Assembly: GCF_029350945.1 (NCBI RefSeq)
Contig: NZ_JARKMS010000004.1
Coordinates: 124,001-188,000 of the forward strand
Origin: Maribacter huludaoensis
Lineage (GTDB): Bacteria > Bacteroidota > Bacteroidia > Flavobacteriales > Flavobacteriaceae
Direction of reading: 5' to 3'
DNA: 64,000 nt
In this document: one piece after another, positions 21,725-51,747 of the stretch
How positions within the stretch are numbered: position 1 is the stretch's first letter
Layout: each line of letters starts with the position of its first letter
Made by a program: the position numbers and the translations under genes
Notes under the pieces: model-generated
Seen by the model: the letters and a program-made list of their open reading frames with translations, nothing else
The model's database searches: none
What the model was told of the DNA's origin: nothing

Positions 21725-21730
21725 CGCACA

Positions 21731-22030
21731 GCAGGCCACCTTATCGCTGCCAAGTAATTGGGAGAGGAAAGTCTGGACACCATAGTGCAGTATAGCGGGT
21801 AACGCCCGTCCGCAGAGATGTGAGGACAAGTGCAACAGAAAGCAAGTACAGTTAGGCTGTAGTGAAACCAGGTAAACTCTATACGGTGAAACGTCATGTA
21901 AATCGGTGTTTGAGGGCTGCACGCCCAAATCGAAGGGTAGGCGGTTAGAGCTTAGGGGTAACCCTTTGCCTAGATAAATGATAAGGAATTCTGATTTTTC
22001 AGAATACAGAATCCGGCTTATGGCCTGCTT
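21731..22030 (+). ncRNA. rnpB: RNase P RNA, class A
   Basis: This is the catalytic RNA that removes 5' leaders from tRNA precursors. The helix P1 is formed by GCAGGCC (21731-21737) and GGCCTGC (22022-22028). The conserved core is recognisable: GAGGAAAGTCTGGAC (CR I), ACAGAAAGCAAGTACAG, the GATAAATGATAAGGAATTC block (CR IV/V region) and ACAGAATCCGGCTTAT near the 3' end. Its length is about 300 nt. The two ~70-codon antisense reading frames here are shadows of the RNA. The ends are accurate to a few bases. Confidence 0.93.
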
Positions 22031-22064
22031 TTTTATTAAGATAGTAAATCTTTAATTTACCTAA

Positions 22065-33568: not shown

Positions 33569-34864
33569 CTAAGATTTTAATAGAAAATCCTTGAGTCCGC
33601 CATAGGTAGAAATCTTAATTGATTTTTTAGTTTTACCCATTACTTTCTGGATTTGATAAGGGATTTCTAATTTCTCATTTAGGGTTTCTTCCACGACGTC
33701 CAAGAATTTTACCGGGTGGGCAGTTTCTAAAAAAATACCATAAGTATCAGGATATTGTTCTTGATATTTTTTCAATCCCAAGTAGCCTACAGCGCCGTGA
33801 GGATCAGCAATGTACCCTTTTATATCGTAAATTTCCTTTAAAGCATCTTTGGTTTCATTATCGTTAAACGAAAAAGAAGAAAGGTGCTCTTTCAGCTCTT
33901 CAAAATTATCTTGAAACAGATGTCTTATTCTTATAAAGTTGCTAGGGTCACCAACATCCATAGCATTTGAAATTGTCGCTGTAGAAGGTTTGGGAGTGTA
34001 CTCTTTTGTAAGCATAAACTGTGGTACGGTGTCGTTCACGTTTGTAGAGGCAACAAAGTGCTTAACGGGCATACCCAATCTTTGAGCAACTAATCCTGCG
34101 CAGATGTTACCGAAGTTGCCCGAAGGAACAGAGAAAACAATTTCTTTATCTTTTGATTTTGCTTGCTTATATGCGAAAAGAAAATAAAATAATTGTGGTA
34201 ACCAACGGGCTACATTTATAGAATTGGCAGAAGTCAGCTTCATATGGTCAAGAAGTTCCTTATCTAAAAAGGCATTCTTTACCATAGCTTGGCAATCATC
34301 AAAAGTACCATCTACTTCTAAAGCAGTAATGTTTTTTCCTAAAGTAGTAAGTTGTCTTTCTTGAAAATCGCTCACTTTTCCGCTAGGGTAAAGAATAACG
34401 ACATTTACTCCGTCTACGCCAAGAAAACCATTGGCTACGGCACCGCCGGTATCACCGGAAGTAGCTACGAGTACGGTAACCTCATTATCGCTAGATCTAG
34501 AGAAATAACCTAGACATTGCGCCATAAAACGAGCGCCAACATCCTTAAAGGCCATGGTAGGACCGTGAAACAGTTCTAATGTAGCAATATTGGGAGTAAT
34601 CTCAACTACCGGAAAAGCAAAATCCAATACCTCCTTTAATATATCTTTCAATACATCATTGGGTACAATCCCTTCTACAAATTGCTGTATTGCCTTAAAT
34701 GCAATTTCTTCATTCGATAAATTTTCAATATTTTCAAAAAAAGAGCTTGATAATGGACTGATTTTCTCTGGAAAATACAAACCTTTATCAGGTGCTATAC
34801 CGTTAATTACGGCAGTATCAAAGGAAACTTCGGGTGCTTTGTTGTTTAGACTATAGAATTTCAA
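33569..34864 (-). CDS. thrC: Threonine synthase
   Basis: The 431-residue PLP enzyme makes threonine from O-phosphohomoserine. The PLP Lys is in FHGPTMAFKDVGARF (about residue 107), with the phosphate-binding ATSGDTGGAV and SVPSGNFGNICAG motifs. It lies 41 bases after thrB and is the last gene of the thr operon. It is of the longer Bacteroidota/E. coli type. Confidence 0.97.
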   Translation of the reverse strand: MKFYSLNNKAPEVSFDTAVINGIAPDKGLYFPEKISPLSSSFFENIENLSNEEIAFKAIQQFVEGIVPNDVLKDILKEVLDFAFPVVEITPNIATLELFHGPTMAFKDVGARFMAQCLGYFSRSSDNEVTVLVATSGDTGGAVANGFLGVDGVNVVILYPSGKVSDFQERQLTTLGKNITALEVDGTFDDCQAMVKNAFLDKELLDHMKLTSANSINVARWLPQLFYFLFAYKQAKSKDKEIVFSVPSGNFGNICAGLVAQRLGMPVKHFVASTNVNDTVPQFMLTKEYTPKPSTATISNAMDVGDPSNFIRIRHLFQDNFEELKEHLSSFSFNDNETKDALKEIYDIKGYIADPHGAVGYLGLKKYQEQYPDTYGIFLETAHPVKFLDVVEETLNEKLEIPYQIQKVMGKTKKSIKISTYGGLKDFLLKS

Positions 34865-34905: not shown

Positions 34906-35832
34906 TTATATAAGTTTTACGCCTTCCATATTAATTTTGGATATATGTATTTCATAAGCAATTCCAATTTTATCATAAACGGTTTTCATTGCATTGCCCA
35001 CTTTTATTGCAGTATCGTTTCCTTTGCTAAATGCAAATATGGAAGGTCCTGAGCCAGAAATTCCAGAACCTAGGGCACCGGCATCTAGAGAAACTTTTTT
35101 AACTTCATCAAAACCTGGTATTAAGATAGAGCGAATAGGCTCTACTATATGGTCTTCAAGAGATCTGCCAATAAGTTCGTAATCTTGTTTGAATAAACCT
35201 GCCAAAAGACCGCCTACATTTCCCCATTGCTTAATTCCGGTTTCCATAGAAATAGTCGTCTTTAAAATCTTTCTAGAATCTGAAGTTTTTATTTCTATCT
35301 GTGGATGTATTACCGTTACATAAAGCTCCGTTGGGGCCGGTATTGCAATAATATCCAAAGGATCATAACTACGTACCAGTGTAAAACCACCAAAAAGGGC
35401 AGGGGCAACATTATCTGCATGGGCAACATCACTTGCCAAACGTTCACCTTCCATTGCAAATTTAACCAACTCTGTTTTGCCGAAAGGGTTGCCCAACAAT
35501 TGGTTCATGGCCCAAACGGCACCCGCAGAACTTGCTGCACTACTACCTATACCGCTACCGGGTTTTATTCTTTTGTCAATTTCAATTTCAAATCCGCCAT
35601 CATAATCAGACGCCAATAAAAAAGCGTTACCTGCCACACCGGCAACATTGTTCAAGGTCTCTTTTGGTAAATCTTGTCCGGTAAGTTTGGTGATCTTAAT
35701 TCCTTTTTGAGGCACTTTTCTAACCACCATTTCATCACCGACCGAGTCAAGTGCAACGCCAAGAACATCAAATCCGCATGAAACGTTTGCAACAGTTGCC
35801 GGACAAAAAACTTTTATTTCGCTTTGGTTCAT
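34906..35832 (-). CDS. thrB: Homoserine kinase
   Basis: The 308-residue GHMP kinase phosphorylates homoserine. The N-terminal CPATVANVSCGFDVLG and the ATP-binding loop PGSGIGSSAASSAGAV are intact, and SGSGPSIFAF ends the GHMP fold. I chose ATG 35832 (MNQSEIKVFCP); an ATG at 35868 adds 12 residues that overlap thrA by 14 bases and have no family match. It ends 41 bases before thrC. Confidence 0.95.
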   Translation of the reverse strand: MNQSEIKVFCPATVANVSCGFDVLGVALDSVGDEMVVRKVPQKGIKITKLTGQDLPKETLNNVAGVAGNAFLLASDYDGGFEIEIDKRIKPGSGIGSSAASSAGAVWAMNQLLGNPFGKTELVKFAMEGERLASDVAHADNVAPALFGGFTLVRSYDPLDIIAIPAPTELYVTVIHPQIEIKTSDSRKILKTTISMETGIKQWGNVGGLLAGLFKQDYELIGRSLEDHIVEPIRSILIPGFDEVKKVSLDAGALGSGISGSGPSIFAFSKGNDTAIKVGNAMKTVYDKIGIAYEIHISKINMEGVKLI

Positions 35833-35854
35833 AATGAGACTGTTGTTGTGAAAT

Positions 35855-38296
35855 TTAGAAGTTTCCAATACGTATTATATCCGCAAAAATACCAGAGGCT
35901 GTAACCGCTGCACCGGCACCTGCCCCTTTTATGATCATTGGTTGGTCAGGGTATCTTTCCGTATAAAAAAGAACAATATTGTCACTACCTTCTAAGTTAT
36001 AGAAATCATGGCCTTTAGGTATTTCCTGAAGACCAACACTAGCCTTGCCATTATCAAATTGCGCCACATACTTTAATTTACTATTTGCATTTTCGGCGCT
36101 GGTAAATAAAGATTGAAAATGCGCTTCATGCTTTATTAAAGAAGCAAAAAATTCTTCGTTATTTTTTGTATTTAAACTCTCTTCAGGTAAAAACGGATTG
36201 TTGGTAATGTCACTAATTTCCAATTGATTTCCACTCTCGCGAGCTAAGATCAAAATTTTACGCATTACGTCAACGCCACTTAAATCAATTTTTGGATCAG
36301 GTTCCGTATAGCCTTCTTCCTGAGCTTGTTTTACCACGTCATGAAAGGTAGTTTGGTCATTAAAATTATTGAAAACAAAATTTAAACTTCCAGAAAGTAC
36401 AGCTTGTATTTTTAATATTTTATCGCCAGAAGCTATTAAATGTTTAAGTGTATCAATTATAGGTAGACCGGCGCCAACATTGGTTTCAAATAAAAACGGT
36501 GCGTTATATGTTCTCGCTAAAGATTTTAAATGTGAATAGTTCTCAAATGCAGAGGAACATGCAATTTTATTACAGGTTACTACAGAAATGCTGTTGCCCA
36601 AATACTCGCTATACGTTTTAGAAACCTCTTCACTTGCAGTATTATCAACAAAAATGCTATTTCTATAGTTTAAATTATTTACCAACTCTAAGAATTTGAC
36701 TTTATCGGCTTTTTCTCCCTCGGCAAGTTTTGCAGACCAATTATTTAAATCAATCCCTTTTTCATCAAAAAGCATGGTTCTTGAATTGGACATTCCTATT
36801 ACTCGAATATTCAACTTTAAGTTTTCTTTCAAGAACTTACGCTGCTCCTTAATTTGCTCTAAAAATTTAGCGCCAACATTACCAACACCCATTACAAATA
36901 GGTTCAATTGTTTAATGTTCTCCTCAAAAAACTCTTCATGCAGTGCGTTAAGCGCTTTTTTGACATCCTTTTCATCTATAATACAAGAAATATTTCTTTC
37001 AGATGCACCTTGGGCAATTACTCTAATATTTACATTGTTCTTACCAAGTGTGCTGAACATTTTTCCGCTTAAACCTTGATGGCTCTTCATGTTGTCACCA
37101 ACCAAAGCAACAATTGCTAAATTATTTTCAGGAATTACCTGCTTAATACGACCTCTTTCGATCTCATATTCAAAGGCTTCGTTAACTATGCTTACTGCTT
37201 TTTCAACATCATCGGCAGAAATACCTACACAGATAGAATGCTCAGAAGAAGCTTGCGTAATTAATACTACGCTAATATCAGCTTGAGAAAGTACTTCGAA
37301 AAAGCGTTTTGAAATTCCCGGAATACCTACCATGCCAGATCCTTCTAAAGAAAGCAGCGCAATATTTCCTATATGGCTTATTCCACGAACAGTCTTACCT
37401 TTTTCGTTCTTGGATTTTGTAATTAATGTTCCGGCTTCATCAGGACTAAAAGTATTCTTTATAACTATTGATATTCCTTTGGTCAATACCGGCTGAATAG
37501 TAGGTGGGTAAAGTACCTTGGCGCCAAAGTGGGACAACTCCATGGCTTCCTCGTACGAAATATGCGGAATTGCTTTGGCTTGCTTCACCATTTTAGGATT
37601 TGCGGTGTACATTCCACTAACGTCTGTCCAAATTTCTAGAACTTGGGCATCTATGGCGGCAGCGTAAATAGCGGCCGTATAGTCAGAGCCACCCCTACCT
37701 AATGTAGTAGAAATACCCTCTTCTGATGTGGCTATAAAACCAGGACATACGATTACTTGTTTGGTTGAAGCTTTAAAATAGTTGATGCAGTTTGCATTGG
37801 TTTTAGCAAAATTAACCACATTTTTACCATTAAGTTTATGTGTAACAATAAGCGATCTACTGTCTTTAAATTCAGCATCTAGTTTTTCGCTGATAAGGTA
37901 TTCGCTAATGATGTATGAGGAGAGAAGTTCTCCGTAACTCACAATTTTATCTGATAATTTTGGGGTGATTTCCCCAATAAAAAAAGCACCTTCTAAAAGG
38001 GTTTCTAGCACATTGAACTCACTTTTTACTTTGCTGAGCACTTTACTTTGTGCCGTAACCGGCATCAATTCTTTTATAGTAGATAAATGTCTTTCTTCTA
38101 AAGTGTTTAAAATTTCTTTATAGGATTGATTTTGGTTAGCAGCTAATGTGCCGGCTTCCAATAATAGATCGGTAACACCTCCTAAAGCTGAAACGACCAA
38201 AATTATAGGGTCGTTGTATTTGGAGATTATATTTTTAATTTTAACTATATTTTCAGGCTTGGCTACAGATGAACCACCGAATTTTAGAACTTTCAT
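35855..38296 (-). CDS. thrA: Bifunctional aspartate kinase/homoserine dehydrogenase I
   Basis: The 813-residue fusion performs the first and third steps of threonine/methionine synthesis. The kinase domain starts with KVLKFGGSSVAKPENI and contains TLGRGGSDYTAAIYAAA. Two ACT domains (roughly residues 320-460) are expected to bind threonine. The dehydrogenase domain has VMGVGNVGAKFLEQI (NAD(P)) and TNVGAGLPIIDTLKHL. This is the head of thrA-thrB-thrC, so threonine feedback acts on the protein, and the leader peptide upstream suggests a second, transcriptional level. Confidence 0.97.
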   Translation of the reverse strand: MKVLKFGGSSVAKPENIVKIKNIISKYNDPIILVVSALGGVTDLLLEAGTLAANQNQSYKEILNTLEERHLSTIKELMPVTAQSKVLSKVKSEFNVLETLLEGAFFIGEITPKLSDKIVSYGELLSSYIISEYLISEKLDAEFKDSRSLIVTHKLNGKNVVNFAKTNANCINYFKASTKQVIVCPGFIATSEEGISTTLGRGGSDYTAAIYAAAIDAQVLEIWTDVSGMYTANPKMVKQAKAIPHISYEEAMELSHFGAKVLYPPTIQPVLTKGISIVIKNTFSPDEAGTLITKSKNEKGKTVRGISHIGNIALLSLEGSGMVGIPGISKRFFEVLSQADISVVLITQASSEHSICVGISADDVEKAVSIVNEAFEYEIERGRIKQVIPENNLAIVALVGDNMKSHQGLSGKMFSTLGKNNVNIRVIAQGASERNISCIIDEKDVKKALNALHEEFFEENIKQLNLFVMGVGNVGAKFLEQIKEQRKFLKENLKLNIRVIGMSNSRTMLFDEKGIDLNNWSAKLAEGEKADKVKFLELVNNLNYRNSIFVDNTASEEVSKTYSEYLGNSISVVTCNKIACSSAFENYSHLKSLARTYNAPFLFETNVGAGLPIIDTLKHLIASGDKILKIQAVLSGSLNFVFNNFNDQTTFHDVVKQAQEEGYTEPDPKIDLSGVDVMRKILILARESGNQLEISDITNNPFLPEESLNTKNNEEFFASLIKHEAHFQSLFTSAENANSKLKYVAQFDNGKASVGLQEIPKGHDFYNLEGSDNIVLFYTERYPDQPMIIKGAGAGAAVTASGIFADIIRIGNF

Positions 38297-38365
38297 GATG
38301 TGTAATATTGACTTTGTAATTTAAGATATGGTGTAATTAAACACGGGTACGGAGATATATAGTTT

Positions 38366-38458
38366 TTAACCCCAAAGGGTGAAACGCGCCGTAGCTGTAC
38401 CATAAGTAATAGTAGCTGAAGTGAAATCTAATGTTATGTCTGTTATTGAGCAGTCCAT
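38366..38458 (-). CDS. thrL: thr operon leader peptide (candidate attenuator)
   Basis: A 30-codon reading frame starts with ATG at 38458 and ends with TAA at 38366, 69 bases before thrA. It encodes eight threonines and three isoleucines (MDCSITDITLDFTSATITYG followed by TATARFTLWG), using all four Thr codons. It sits directly behind a good promoter (38479-38509). This is the classic composition of an operon attenuated by threonine/isoleucine supply, as in enteric thrL. Downstream, CCGTACC can pair with the GGTAC or TACGG parts of the leader, but I see no clear GC stem with a U run, so the termination step is not proven. Confidence 0.6.
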   Translation of the reverse strand: MDCSITDITLDFTSATITYGTATARFTLWG

Positions 38459-38478
38459 AAATACTAATGGTTGAAAAT

Positions 38479-38509
38479 CAAATGTAGTACATTTGATATC
38501 TTAATCAAA
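38479..38509 (-). promoter_or_regulatory. Promoter of the thr leader and thrABC
   Basis: On the minus strand, TTTG (38509-38506), 19 bases, and TACATTTG (38486-38479) match the Bacteroidota consensus well. The leader ATG begins 21 bases after the -7 box. The -7 box is half of the palindrome CAAATGTAGTACATTTG, whose other half is a -7 box on the plus strand. Confidence 0.6.
38488..38495 (+). promoter_or_regulatory. Candidate -7 box of nnr (other half of the palindrome)
   Basis: TACATTTG on the plus strand fits TAnnTTTG and lies 69 bases before the nnr ATG. A TTG at 38471-38473 is only 14 bases upstream, so the -33 spacing is poor. Confidence 0.35.
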
Positions 38510-51586: not shown

Positions 51587-51619
51587 GTTGTGTATAATCA
51601 GTAATACTTACTACATTTG
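51587..51619 (+). promoter_or_regulatory. Promoter of the tRNA-Ser-tRNA-Pro unit
   Basis: GTTG (51587-51590), 21 bases, and TACATTTG (51612-51619) fit the Bacteroidota promoter pattern, with the mature tRNA-Ser starting about 40 bases on. Confidence 0.55.
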
Positions 51620-51658: not shown

Positions 51659-51747
51659 GGAGAGGTGCCTGAGTGGCCGAAAGGAGCGGTTTGCTAAATC
51701 GTCGTAGGTGGAAACACTTACCCAGGGTTCGAATCCCTGTCTCTCCG
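51659..51747 (+). tRNA. tRNA-Ser (anticodon GCT)
   Basis: A ~89-base tRNA with acceptor stem GGAGAGG/TCTCTCC (one G-T pair), anticodon loop TTTGCTAAA, a long variable arm typical of class II tRNAs (GTCGTAGGTGGAAACACTTAC region), and T loop GTTCGAATC. CCA is not encoded (the genomic sequence continues GCAA), so it must be added after RNase Z trimming. Confidence 0.95.

Follow-up and report, generated by a model that had tools for sequence, protein, structure and literature searches.

What controls the threonine operon of Maribacter huludaoensis (Flavobacteriaceae), in which a short reading frame crowded with threonine codons precedes thrA and no intrinsic terminator follows it? Leader-peptide attenuation of amino acid operons is textbook knowledge, and its enteric example, thrL, is a short ORF with many Thr and Ile codons that lies upstream of the bifunctional thrA gene and whose regulatory codons adjoin an RNA hairpin. 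The enteric thr operon leader is described by what we take to be Rfam family RF00506. The window, by which we mean the whole stretch of 64,000 nucleotides analyzed here (contig NZ_JARKMS010000004.1, positions 124,001 to 188,000), resembles the enteric arrangement in that its leader is Thr/Ile-rich, lies upstream of a bifunctional thrA, and has codons that adjoin a hairpin. It differs from thrL in having neither a U-tract terminator, nor a supported antiterminator, nor an Rfam match at gathering score, and furthermore in its type of promoter and in a leader stop that lies about 70 nt from thrA.

The thr operon and its leader

The operon lies on the minus strand. Its thrA gene (35855 to 38296), which encodes a bifunctional aspartate kinase/homoserine dehydrogenase I (NCBIfam, 1045 bits against a cut-off of 726), is 88 to 99% identical to the thrA genes of twelve Maribacter relatives. 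Next come thrB (34906 to 35868), a profile match to homoserine kinase for which an ATG located 12 codons in is a likelier start than the listed TTG, and a 431-amino-acid ORF (33569 to 34864), the putative thrC, which by eye is probably a threonine synthase. The divergent neighbor of the operon is an NAD(P)H-hydrate dehydratase/epimerase gene for which two domain models pass their cut-offs while the full-length model fails.

The leader ORF (38366 to 38458, minus strand) consists of 30 codons plus TAA and encodes MDCSITDITLDFTSATITYGTATARFTLWG. A re-reading of the minus strand agreed with the first-pass annotation, which had counted eight Thr codons and three Ile codons in a 30-codon ORF and had placed its end 69 bases from thrA; the Thr codons are ACA, ACA, ACT, ACT, ACT, ACA, ACG, and ACC, and the stop is indeed 69 nt from the thrA ATG at 38296. 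Among 20,000 shuffles of the leader's own bases, eight or more Thr codons arose at a rate of 0.0001, and we therefore conclude that the eight Thr codons in the window leader are not there by chance. The annotation had also described a TTTG-N19-TACATTTG promoter 21 bases before the ORF. The promoter itself stands: TTTG, the -33 element of a Bacteroidetes-type promoter, is at 38506 to 38509, and the -7 element TACATTTG is at 38479 to 38486, 19 nt away (both minus strand). The spacing needed correction, as the leader ATG begins 20 nt past the -7 element rather than 21. Both elements were named after what we assume to be the Bacteroidetes promoter consensus. A promoter was located in 150 of 171 distinct thrA upstream regions and in none of the remaining 21. 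TTTG is found near -33 in 100 of these 150 promoters, and the leader ATG falls 16 to 21 nt past the -7 element in 99 of them.

Conservation of the leader in relatives

Across Flavobacteriaceae, a Thr-coding leader is present in 173 of 190 thrA upstream regions. These 190 regions comprise 94 distinct ones (15 identical regions were merged and 3 loci were unusable) from a batch of 80 named relatives and 30 loci of 36 genus genomes, a further 88 from a sample of other genera, and 8 more, with some genomes entering twice. The sampling of other genera was even across the family: 160 genomes had a thrA match and 90 of these were read (30 loci and 60 fetched), two of which belong to the window's genus and were counted in the first batch. 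In this sample, the leader occurs in 75 of 88 regions and has an ATG in 71. Among the 80 named relatives, one locus (L049) is cut by a contig end, and 76 of the other 79 have a leader, 72 of them with an ATG. Leaders were found by an anchor, ACCC(C)...GGG, together with an in-frame stop, a procedure that builds the hairpin partly into the sample and misses leaders without a hairpin. The anchored scan found no leader in 17 of the 190 family regions; L149 was counted as missing, yet by eye it has a leader with a 6-nt-loop hairpin.

The content of Thr codons is kept throughout. At least three occur in all 173 family leaders and at least four in 166, leaving 7 with only three. Among 160 ATG-started leaders, threonine accounts for 21.4% of codons in the leader frame, whereas shifting the frame gives 5.5% and 2.1%. 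In 157 of these 160 distinct leaders neither other frame has as much Thr as the leader frame, and the other 3 are ties (the count covered 171 distinct regions, a few of them outside the family). An in-frame ATG is absent from 11 of 180 leader-bearing regions. In close relatives, 13 distinct 93-nt leaders have 7 to 10 Thr codons each, and the Thr positions and other residues turn over. Single-base codon differences between close leaders amount to 222 synonymous versus 364 nonsynonymous changes, which argues that codon content is kept without strong constraint on the peptide as a whole. Many near-relative leaders end in TTTPLG or a close variant, and the two codons preceding the ACC of the hairpin encode Thr or Ile in 78% and 63% of cases. 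The distance from leader stop to thrA has a median of 72 nt, with quartiles of 68 and 81 (n = 141).

The first-pass annotation had proposed an amino acid leader peptide and had predicted that relatives would keep its start, its stop, and its Thr/Ile codons while the rest varied. This is what we observed across Flavobacteriaceae, and the family-wide conservation of Thr codons supports the proposal. The window ORF is a genuine and conserved threonine leader. Its kind is known, and it represents a variant that lacks an intrinsic terminator. It is very probably a threonine-responsive leader-peptide attenuator of thrABC, and our results suggest that it senses isoleucine also.

Several individual leaders are worth describing. 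In Cerina litoralis (L070), an intact Thr leader has its stop 170 nt from thrA, compared with the usual distance of about 70. Three Pricia regions (L040, L042, and L044) have no intact leader hairpin, while the stretch preceding thrA is still C-rich; in one of these (L040), the reading frame ends after four codons. In addition, the leader alignment contains a conserved block, ACGGACATA, early in the leader.

Hairpins and blocks around the leader stop

Two hairpins can be drawn around the end of the leader. In the window, hairpin A (ACCC-UUUG-GGGU; 38369 to 38380, minus strand) begins in the last Thr codon and ends on the base just before UAA. Its general form is ACCC(C)-loop-GGGGU; its 3' end meets or adjoins the stop codon, or else the stop lies in the loop. 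All 148 distinct regions (141 from the family and 7 from outside it) have the four inner pairs, partly by construction given that CCC/GGG is the search anchor; the fourth pair is C-G in 115 regions and A-U in 33. For the counts of post-stop composition and of strict-scan terminators, regions more than 88% identical were merged. After the stop there is an AU-rich stretch in which CATAT and a TCCG block recur, followed by hairpin B and then by an AU-rich stretch up to thrA. The window copy of the (N)TCCG block that is common in alignments of relatives is CTCCG (38350 to 38354, minus strand). Hairpin B (GUGU-UUAAUU-ACAC; 38331 to 38344, minus strand) is short, with 4 bp in the window, and its sequence varies in relatives. 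Post-stop stems of at least 6 bp occur in 37% of the 148 regions versus 13% of shuffles. When 105 near regions were folded jointly with RNAalifold, only a three-pair core of hairpin A emerged.

A covariance model (R1) made from 65 leaders matched 32 of 120 family genomes, with a single hit in each, under strict filters that missed more distant genera. Set against thrA coordinates, 31 of these matches lie beside thrA and one (in G144, with an E value of 0.07) lies elsewhere. A pattern search of the window's own genome found no further copies of the element, a result that is little informative as the pattern also misses the window's own copy. Rfam yielded no match at gathering score near 38300 to 38500, with only chance-level snoRNA hits (E values of 7 and 7.7). 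The CATAT and TCCG blocks after the stop are traceable beyond Flavobacteriaceae. In another family (L222, L226, and L228), a different hairpin stands at the end of the Thr leaders; its loop contains the stop, and in L222 it reads ACGGG-GUAA-CCCGU in place of ACCCC-loop-GGGGU.

Intrinsic terminators in thr and his leaders

No U-tract terminator was seen between the window leader and thrA. A strict scan (stem of at least 7, at least 4 G-C pairs, and at least 5 T in 8) passed 3 of 141 thr leaders, all of them weak and consisting of hairpin A itself with scattered T. These scans uphold the earlier remark that a plain U-tract terminator is missing and that the mechanism may differ from the enteric one. 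Among his leaders of the family, the same strict scan detected a terminator in 20 of 21, with a stem of 11 to 15 bp and a tail rich in U, so neither the scan nor the lineage is at fault where thr leaders show none. Of 30 family loci, 21 yielded a his leader, and that of the window's own genome (L254) has a textbook intrinsic terminator. It shares with the thr leader its short length and its run of the cognate codon (HHH), but differs from it in having this terminator and in having no excess of C over G. Many of the his leaders (L251 to L266 and L299 to L325), which carry the HHH run, end in QAR, QAS, or QAN.

Sister families of Bacteroidota (L229, L230, L232, L233, and L234) also have Thr-rich leaders before a thrA homologue, but strong terminators follow, with a stem of 8 to 15 bp and a U-rich tail. 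In these leaders, a segment at the leader end is by eye complementary to the 5' arm of the terminator; the leader of L232, read by eye, has few Thr codons. Seven other Thr leaders from outside the family are without a terminator, and a terminator-like hairpin is present in two leaderless regions from outside it (L223 and L238). As judged by these scans, the terminator is absent specifically from the thr leader of Flavobacteriaceae and nearer relatives.

Composition of the RNA after the leader stop

The 69-nt segment between the leader stop and thrA (38297 to 38365, minus strand) has 16 C, 4 G, and little structure, and is a candidate Rho-loading region. Its excess of C over G, 12, is the largest of 29 upstream regions of the window, among which the next largest is 5 and for which the joint C/G ratio, thrA included, is 0.96. 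The same skew marks thr leaders across the family: the 70 nt after the stop have a C/G ratio of 2.42, with C exceeding G in 139 of 141 distinct regions, and in the sample of other genera C exceeds G after the stop in 74 of 75. By comparison, the ratio is 0.76 for his leaders of the family (C above G in 2 of 21), 0.72 for those within the genus (0 of 12), and 0.81 for ilvD upstream regions (1 of 9). Thr leaders from outside the family have a ratio of 0.86 where they bear a terminator, as in the sister families (1 of 5), and 1.46 where they do not (6 of 7). Leaderless thrA upstream regions of the family have a ratio of 1.36 over 16 regions, with C above G in 9 (L149 was left out, and one genome enters twice); without the three degenerate Pricia leaders (55 C and 16 G), a count by hand gives 132 C to 122 G. 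For 26 leaderless regions outside the family, the ratio is 1.08, with C above G in 13. A leader upstream of ilvD in the genus was considered and rejected, as a strict promoter scan came back empty except for three matches on the other strand of L270.

The excess has a defined position. In 15-nt bins, C/G is 0.7 to 0.9 far upstream of the leader, reaches about 1 to 1.2 near the leader start, and is 1.1 to 2.6 within the leader (1.27 over the leader with Thr codons left out) and 0.89 at hairpin A. It then stands at 1.8 to 2.8 for 60 nt past the stop, drops to 0.31 to 0.74 over the initial 30 nt of thrA, and is 1.1 to 1.3 thereafter. Furthermore, the post-stop RNA is barely more folded than shuffles (mean z of -0.26, n = 171).

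According to one source, Rho-loading sites have high C, low G, and relatively little secondary structure, and prediction of Rho terminators beyond C richness is not feasible (PMC5021804). The genome of the window encodes rho (one match, 647.8 bits, cut-off 509.45). Because there is no U-tract terminator, because the RNA after the stop is C-rich, G-poor, and little structured, and because a rho gene is present, we took Rho as the putative terminator. Judged from these sequence features, there is an even chance that Rho is the terminating agent of the thr leader attenuator. An excess of C over G is a weak predictor of Rho, and it could also keep the thrA start region open.

Alternatives to termination by Rho

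Termination might be intrinsic after all, occurring at hairpin A or hairpin B with a poor U-tract, in which case a ribosome stalled on the Thr codons would block it by masking the 5' arm of the former. The GC-rich hairpin A comes directly after these codons, a lax terminator scan passes 15 of 141 thr leaders (13 of them via hairpin A) versus 0.8% of shuffles of single letters, and a few relatives (L146, L147, L150, and L153) have T-rich tails. However, a proper U-tract is absent from the window and, by the strict scan, from nearly all relatives, in a lineage that uses ordinary U-tract terminators in its his leaders; moreover, the stop codon lies in or next to hairpin A, so a terminating ribosome would cover the hairpin too. 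On this evidence we consider intrinsic termination unlikely. An argument can also be made that the leader is a relic or a general upstream ORF and that the operon is controlled by a repressor at a dyad over the -7 element. This dyad is a 17-bp inverted repeat, CAAATGTA-C-TACATTTG (38479 to 38495, minus strand), which overlaps the -7 element and is a possible operator. Its pattern, CAAANGTACTACNTTTG, has a single match in the 4.24 Mb of the genome, at the thr promoter, and at least 6 of its 8 positions match in 121 of 150 located promoters versus 3.8% in a control that shuffles the letters of one arm and ignores kinship. Yet a promoter repressor leaves the enrichment of Thr codons, the hairpin, and their joint conservation unexplained, which makes it very unlikely as the sole control. 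The dyad may be an operator for a regulator, possibly one that acts besides attenuation.

The remaining alternatives depend on RNA pairing. A classical 1:2/2:3/3:4 attenuator would operate through CCGTACC, which the first-pass annotation had paired with either half of GGTACAGCTACGG in mutually exclusive structures. Both elements are where they should be on the minus strand (CCGTACC at 38352 to 38346 and GGTACAGCTACGG at 38401 to 38389) and the pairing is possible in the window, but the exclusive switch is unsupported beyond close relatives. Each half (GGTAC and TACGG) is fully paired with CCGTACC in 10 of 15 distinct 93-nt genus leaders; where it is incomplete, in 5 leaders for either half, the first half retains 3 to 4 of 5 pairs and the second 2 to 4, and two leaders (L007 and L009) each lose just one half. 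We rejected this switch, which is complete in only part of the close relatives. With a single-sequence fold of the window leader that is no better than shuffles (z of -0.49) and no terminator strand, a classical attenuator is extremely improbable. A rather unlikely reading, though a better one than either of these last two, is translational attenuation, in which the position of the ribosome on the leader would alter access to the thrA start without terminating transcription. By eye, the TCCGTT block after the stop can base-pair with two leader blocks, ACGGAC and AATGG, the segment at AATGG has a slight advantage with its own partner over swapped ones (-5.75 versus -5.15, median rank of 0.28, n = 50), and the neighboring TATGG:CCGTA is complete in 13 of 15 genus leaders. 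Across the leader as a whole, however, segments showed no consistent preference for their own over swapped post-stop RNA in 76 distinct near relatives, and for want of a consistent gain we rejected two long-range helices, ACGGAC:GUCCGU and AAUGG:CCGUU, in which a few genera seemed by eye to show compensatory changes. Sequestering of the thrA start was likewise rejected: on average the start is unpaired at 0.548 with the leader versus 0.585 without it (n = 64), although it is more open by more than 0.1 without the leader in 8 of the 64. Because the leader makes little difference, on average, to how open the thrA start is, translational control is less likely. The GGGG arm of hairpin A, tried as a downstream antiterminator, came out slightly worse than shuffles (-4.8 versus -5.2) and was discarded. 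Taken together, the swap, genus-pairing, and GGGG-arm tests found no antiterminator helix kept by covariation.

A proposed Rho-dependent threonine attenuator

The reading that we favor is a ribosome-mediated threonine attenuator on thrABC in which Rho has taken over the terminating step from an intrinsic terminator, and we would put the odds on it at about equal. With ample threonine, the ribosome would complete the leader and leave, and Rho would then load on the bare C-rich RNA and halt RNA polymerase in or just past the leader. When charged tRNA-Thr is short, ribosomes would stall at the Thr codons, covering hairpin A and the end of the leader. Together with the first ribosome on thrA, these stalled ribosomes would leave too little free RNA, and transcription would read through. 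A geometric estimate places the free RNA between parked leader ribosomes and the ribosome at the thrA start at about 55 nt. It is not obvious that a ribosome stalled upstream of a rut site keeps Rho off. The own-versus-swapped and GGGG-arm pairing tests found no stem that masks the rut site as in mgtL, and steric blocking is therefore left as the way to keep Rho off; that a stalled ribosome blocks Rho sterically is a guess.

Vitreschak and colleagues reportedly published a comparative survey of attenuators in 2004, which may already list thr leaders in Bacteroidetes. Among the matches listed in the open-access literature, taking titles and the openings of abstracts, none concerned a Rho-dependent threonine leader or thr leaders of Flavobacteriaceae. 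Related switches do exist. PMC5021804 presents tnaC of Escherichia coli and mgtL of Salmonella as Rho-dependent leader-peptide switches, and reports that a stall in mgtL favors a stem that masks the Rho region. Like these, the thr leader has a peptide predicted to be translated, C-rich and G-poor RNA after it, a rho gene in the genome, and no intrinsic terminator that we could find. Unlike them, the thr case involves a biosynthetic operon and its own end product, and the role of Rho is deduced from sequence; unlike mgtL in particular, no rut-hiding stem was found. Another likeness is to the leaders of Mycobacterium cys operons, for which PMC1262725 describes runs of Cys codons near the stop and no terminator, with the authors suggesting Rho and calling the prediction "rather weak." The thr leader similarly has a run of amino acid codons near its stop and no terminator. 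The mycobacterial leaders belong to another phylum and another amino acid, and their polyY motifs are not conserved (PMC1262725), whereas C exceeds G after nearly all thr leaders. Nearer to Maribacter, PMC9723704 reports strong clues for leader-peptide attenuation upstream of amino acid operons in Flavobacterium psychrophilum, with threonine and thrA absent from its main text. Among the matches listed, this rather general account was the one place where such attenuation was mentioned for Flavobacteriaceae. PMC7366714 mentions small ORFs of Bacteroides thetaiotaomicron that resemble leader peptides. Finally, PMC2965389 names as a limitation that a terminator-based attenuator scan misses Rho cases.

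It is conceivable, if somewhat doubtful, that an old Bacteroidota threonine attenuator had its intrinsic terminator exchanged for a Rho-loading stretch in Flavobacteriaceae while the his attenuator kept its own. The family would then have one sensing module with two interchangeable ends, and a biosynthetic attenuator run by Rho family-wide. If this is true, it would represent a Rho-operated amino acid leader attenuator conserved throughout a large bacterial family, for which the his leader offers an internal control in the same genomes and the sister families offer the classical counterpart. An evolutionary change in the terminating end of a leader switch would thereby become directly testable. 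It would also account for the failure of searches based on premature intrinsic terminators to detect leaders of this sort.

Other features of the window

Two features of the window outside the thr region deserve mention. The only other occurrence of TACTACNTTTG in the window, at 51609 to 51619 on the plus strand, lies about 40 nt upstream of a tRNA gene at 51659 and is likely its promoter. Furthermore, the plus strand from 21728 to 22035 encodes a class A RNase P RNA (Rfam RF00010, 202.5 bits).
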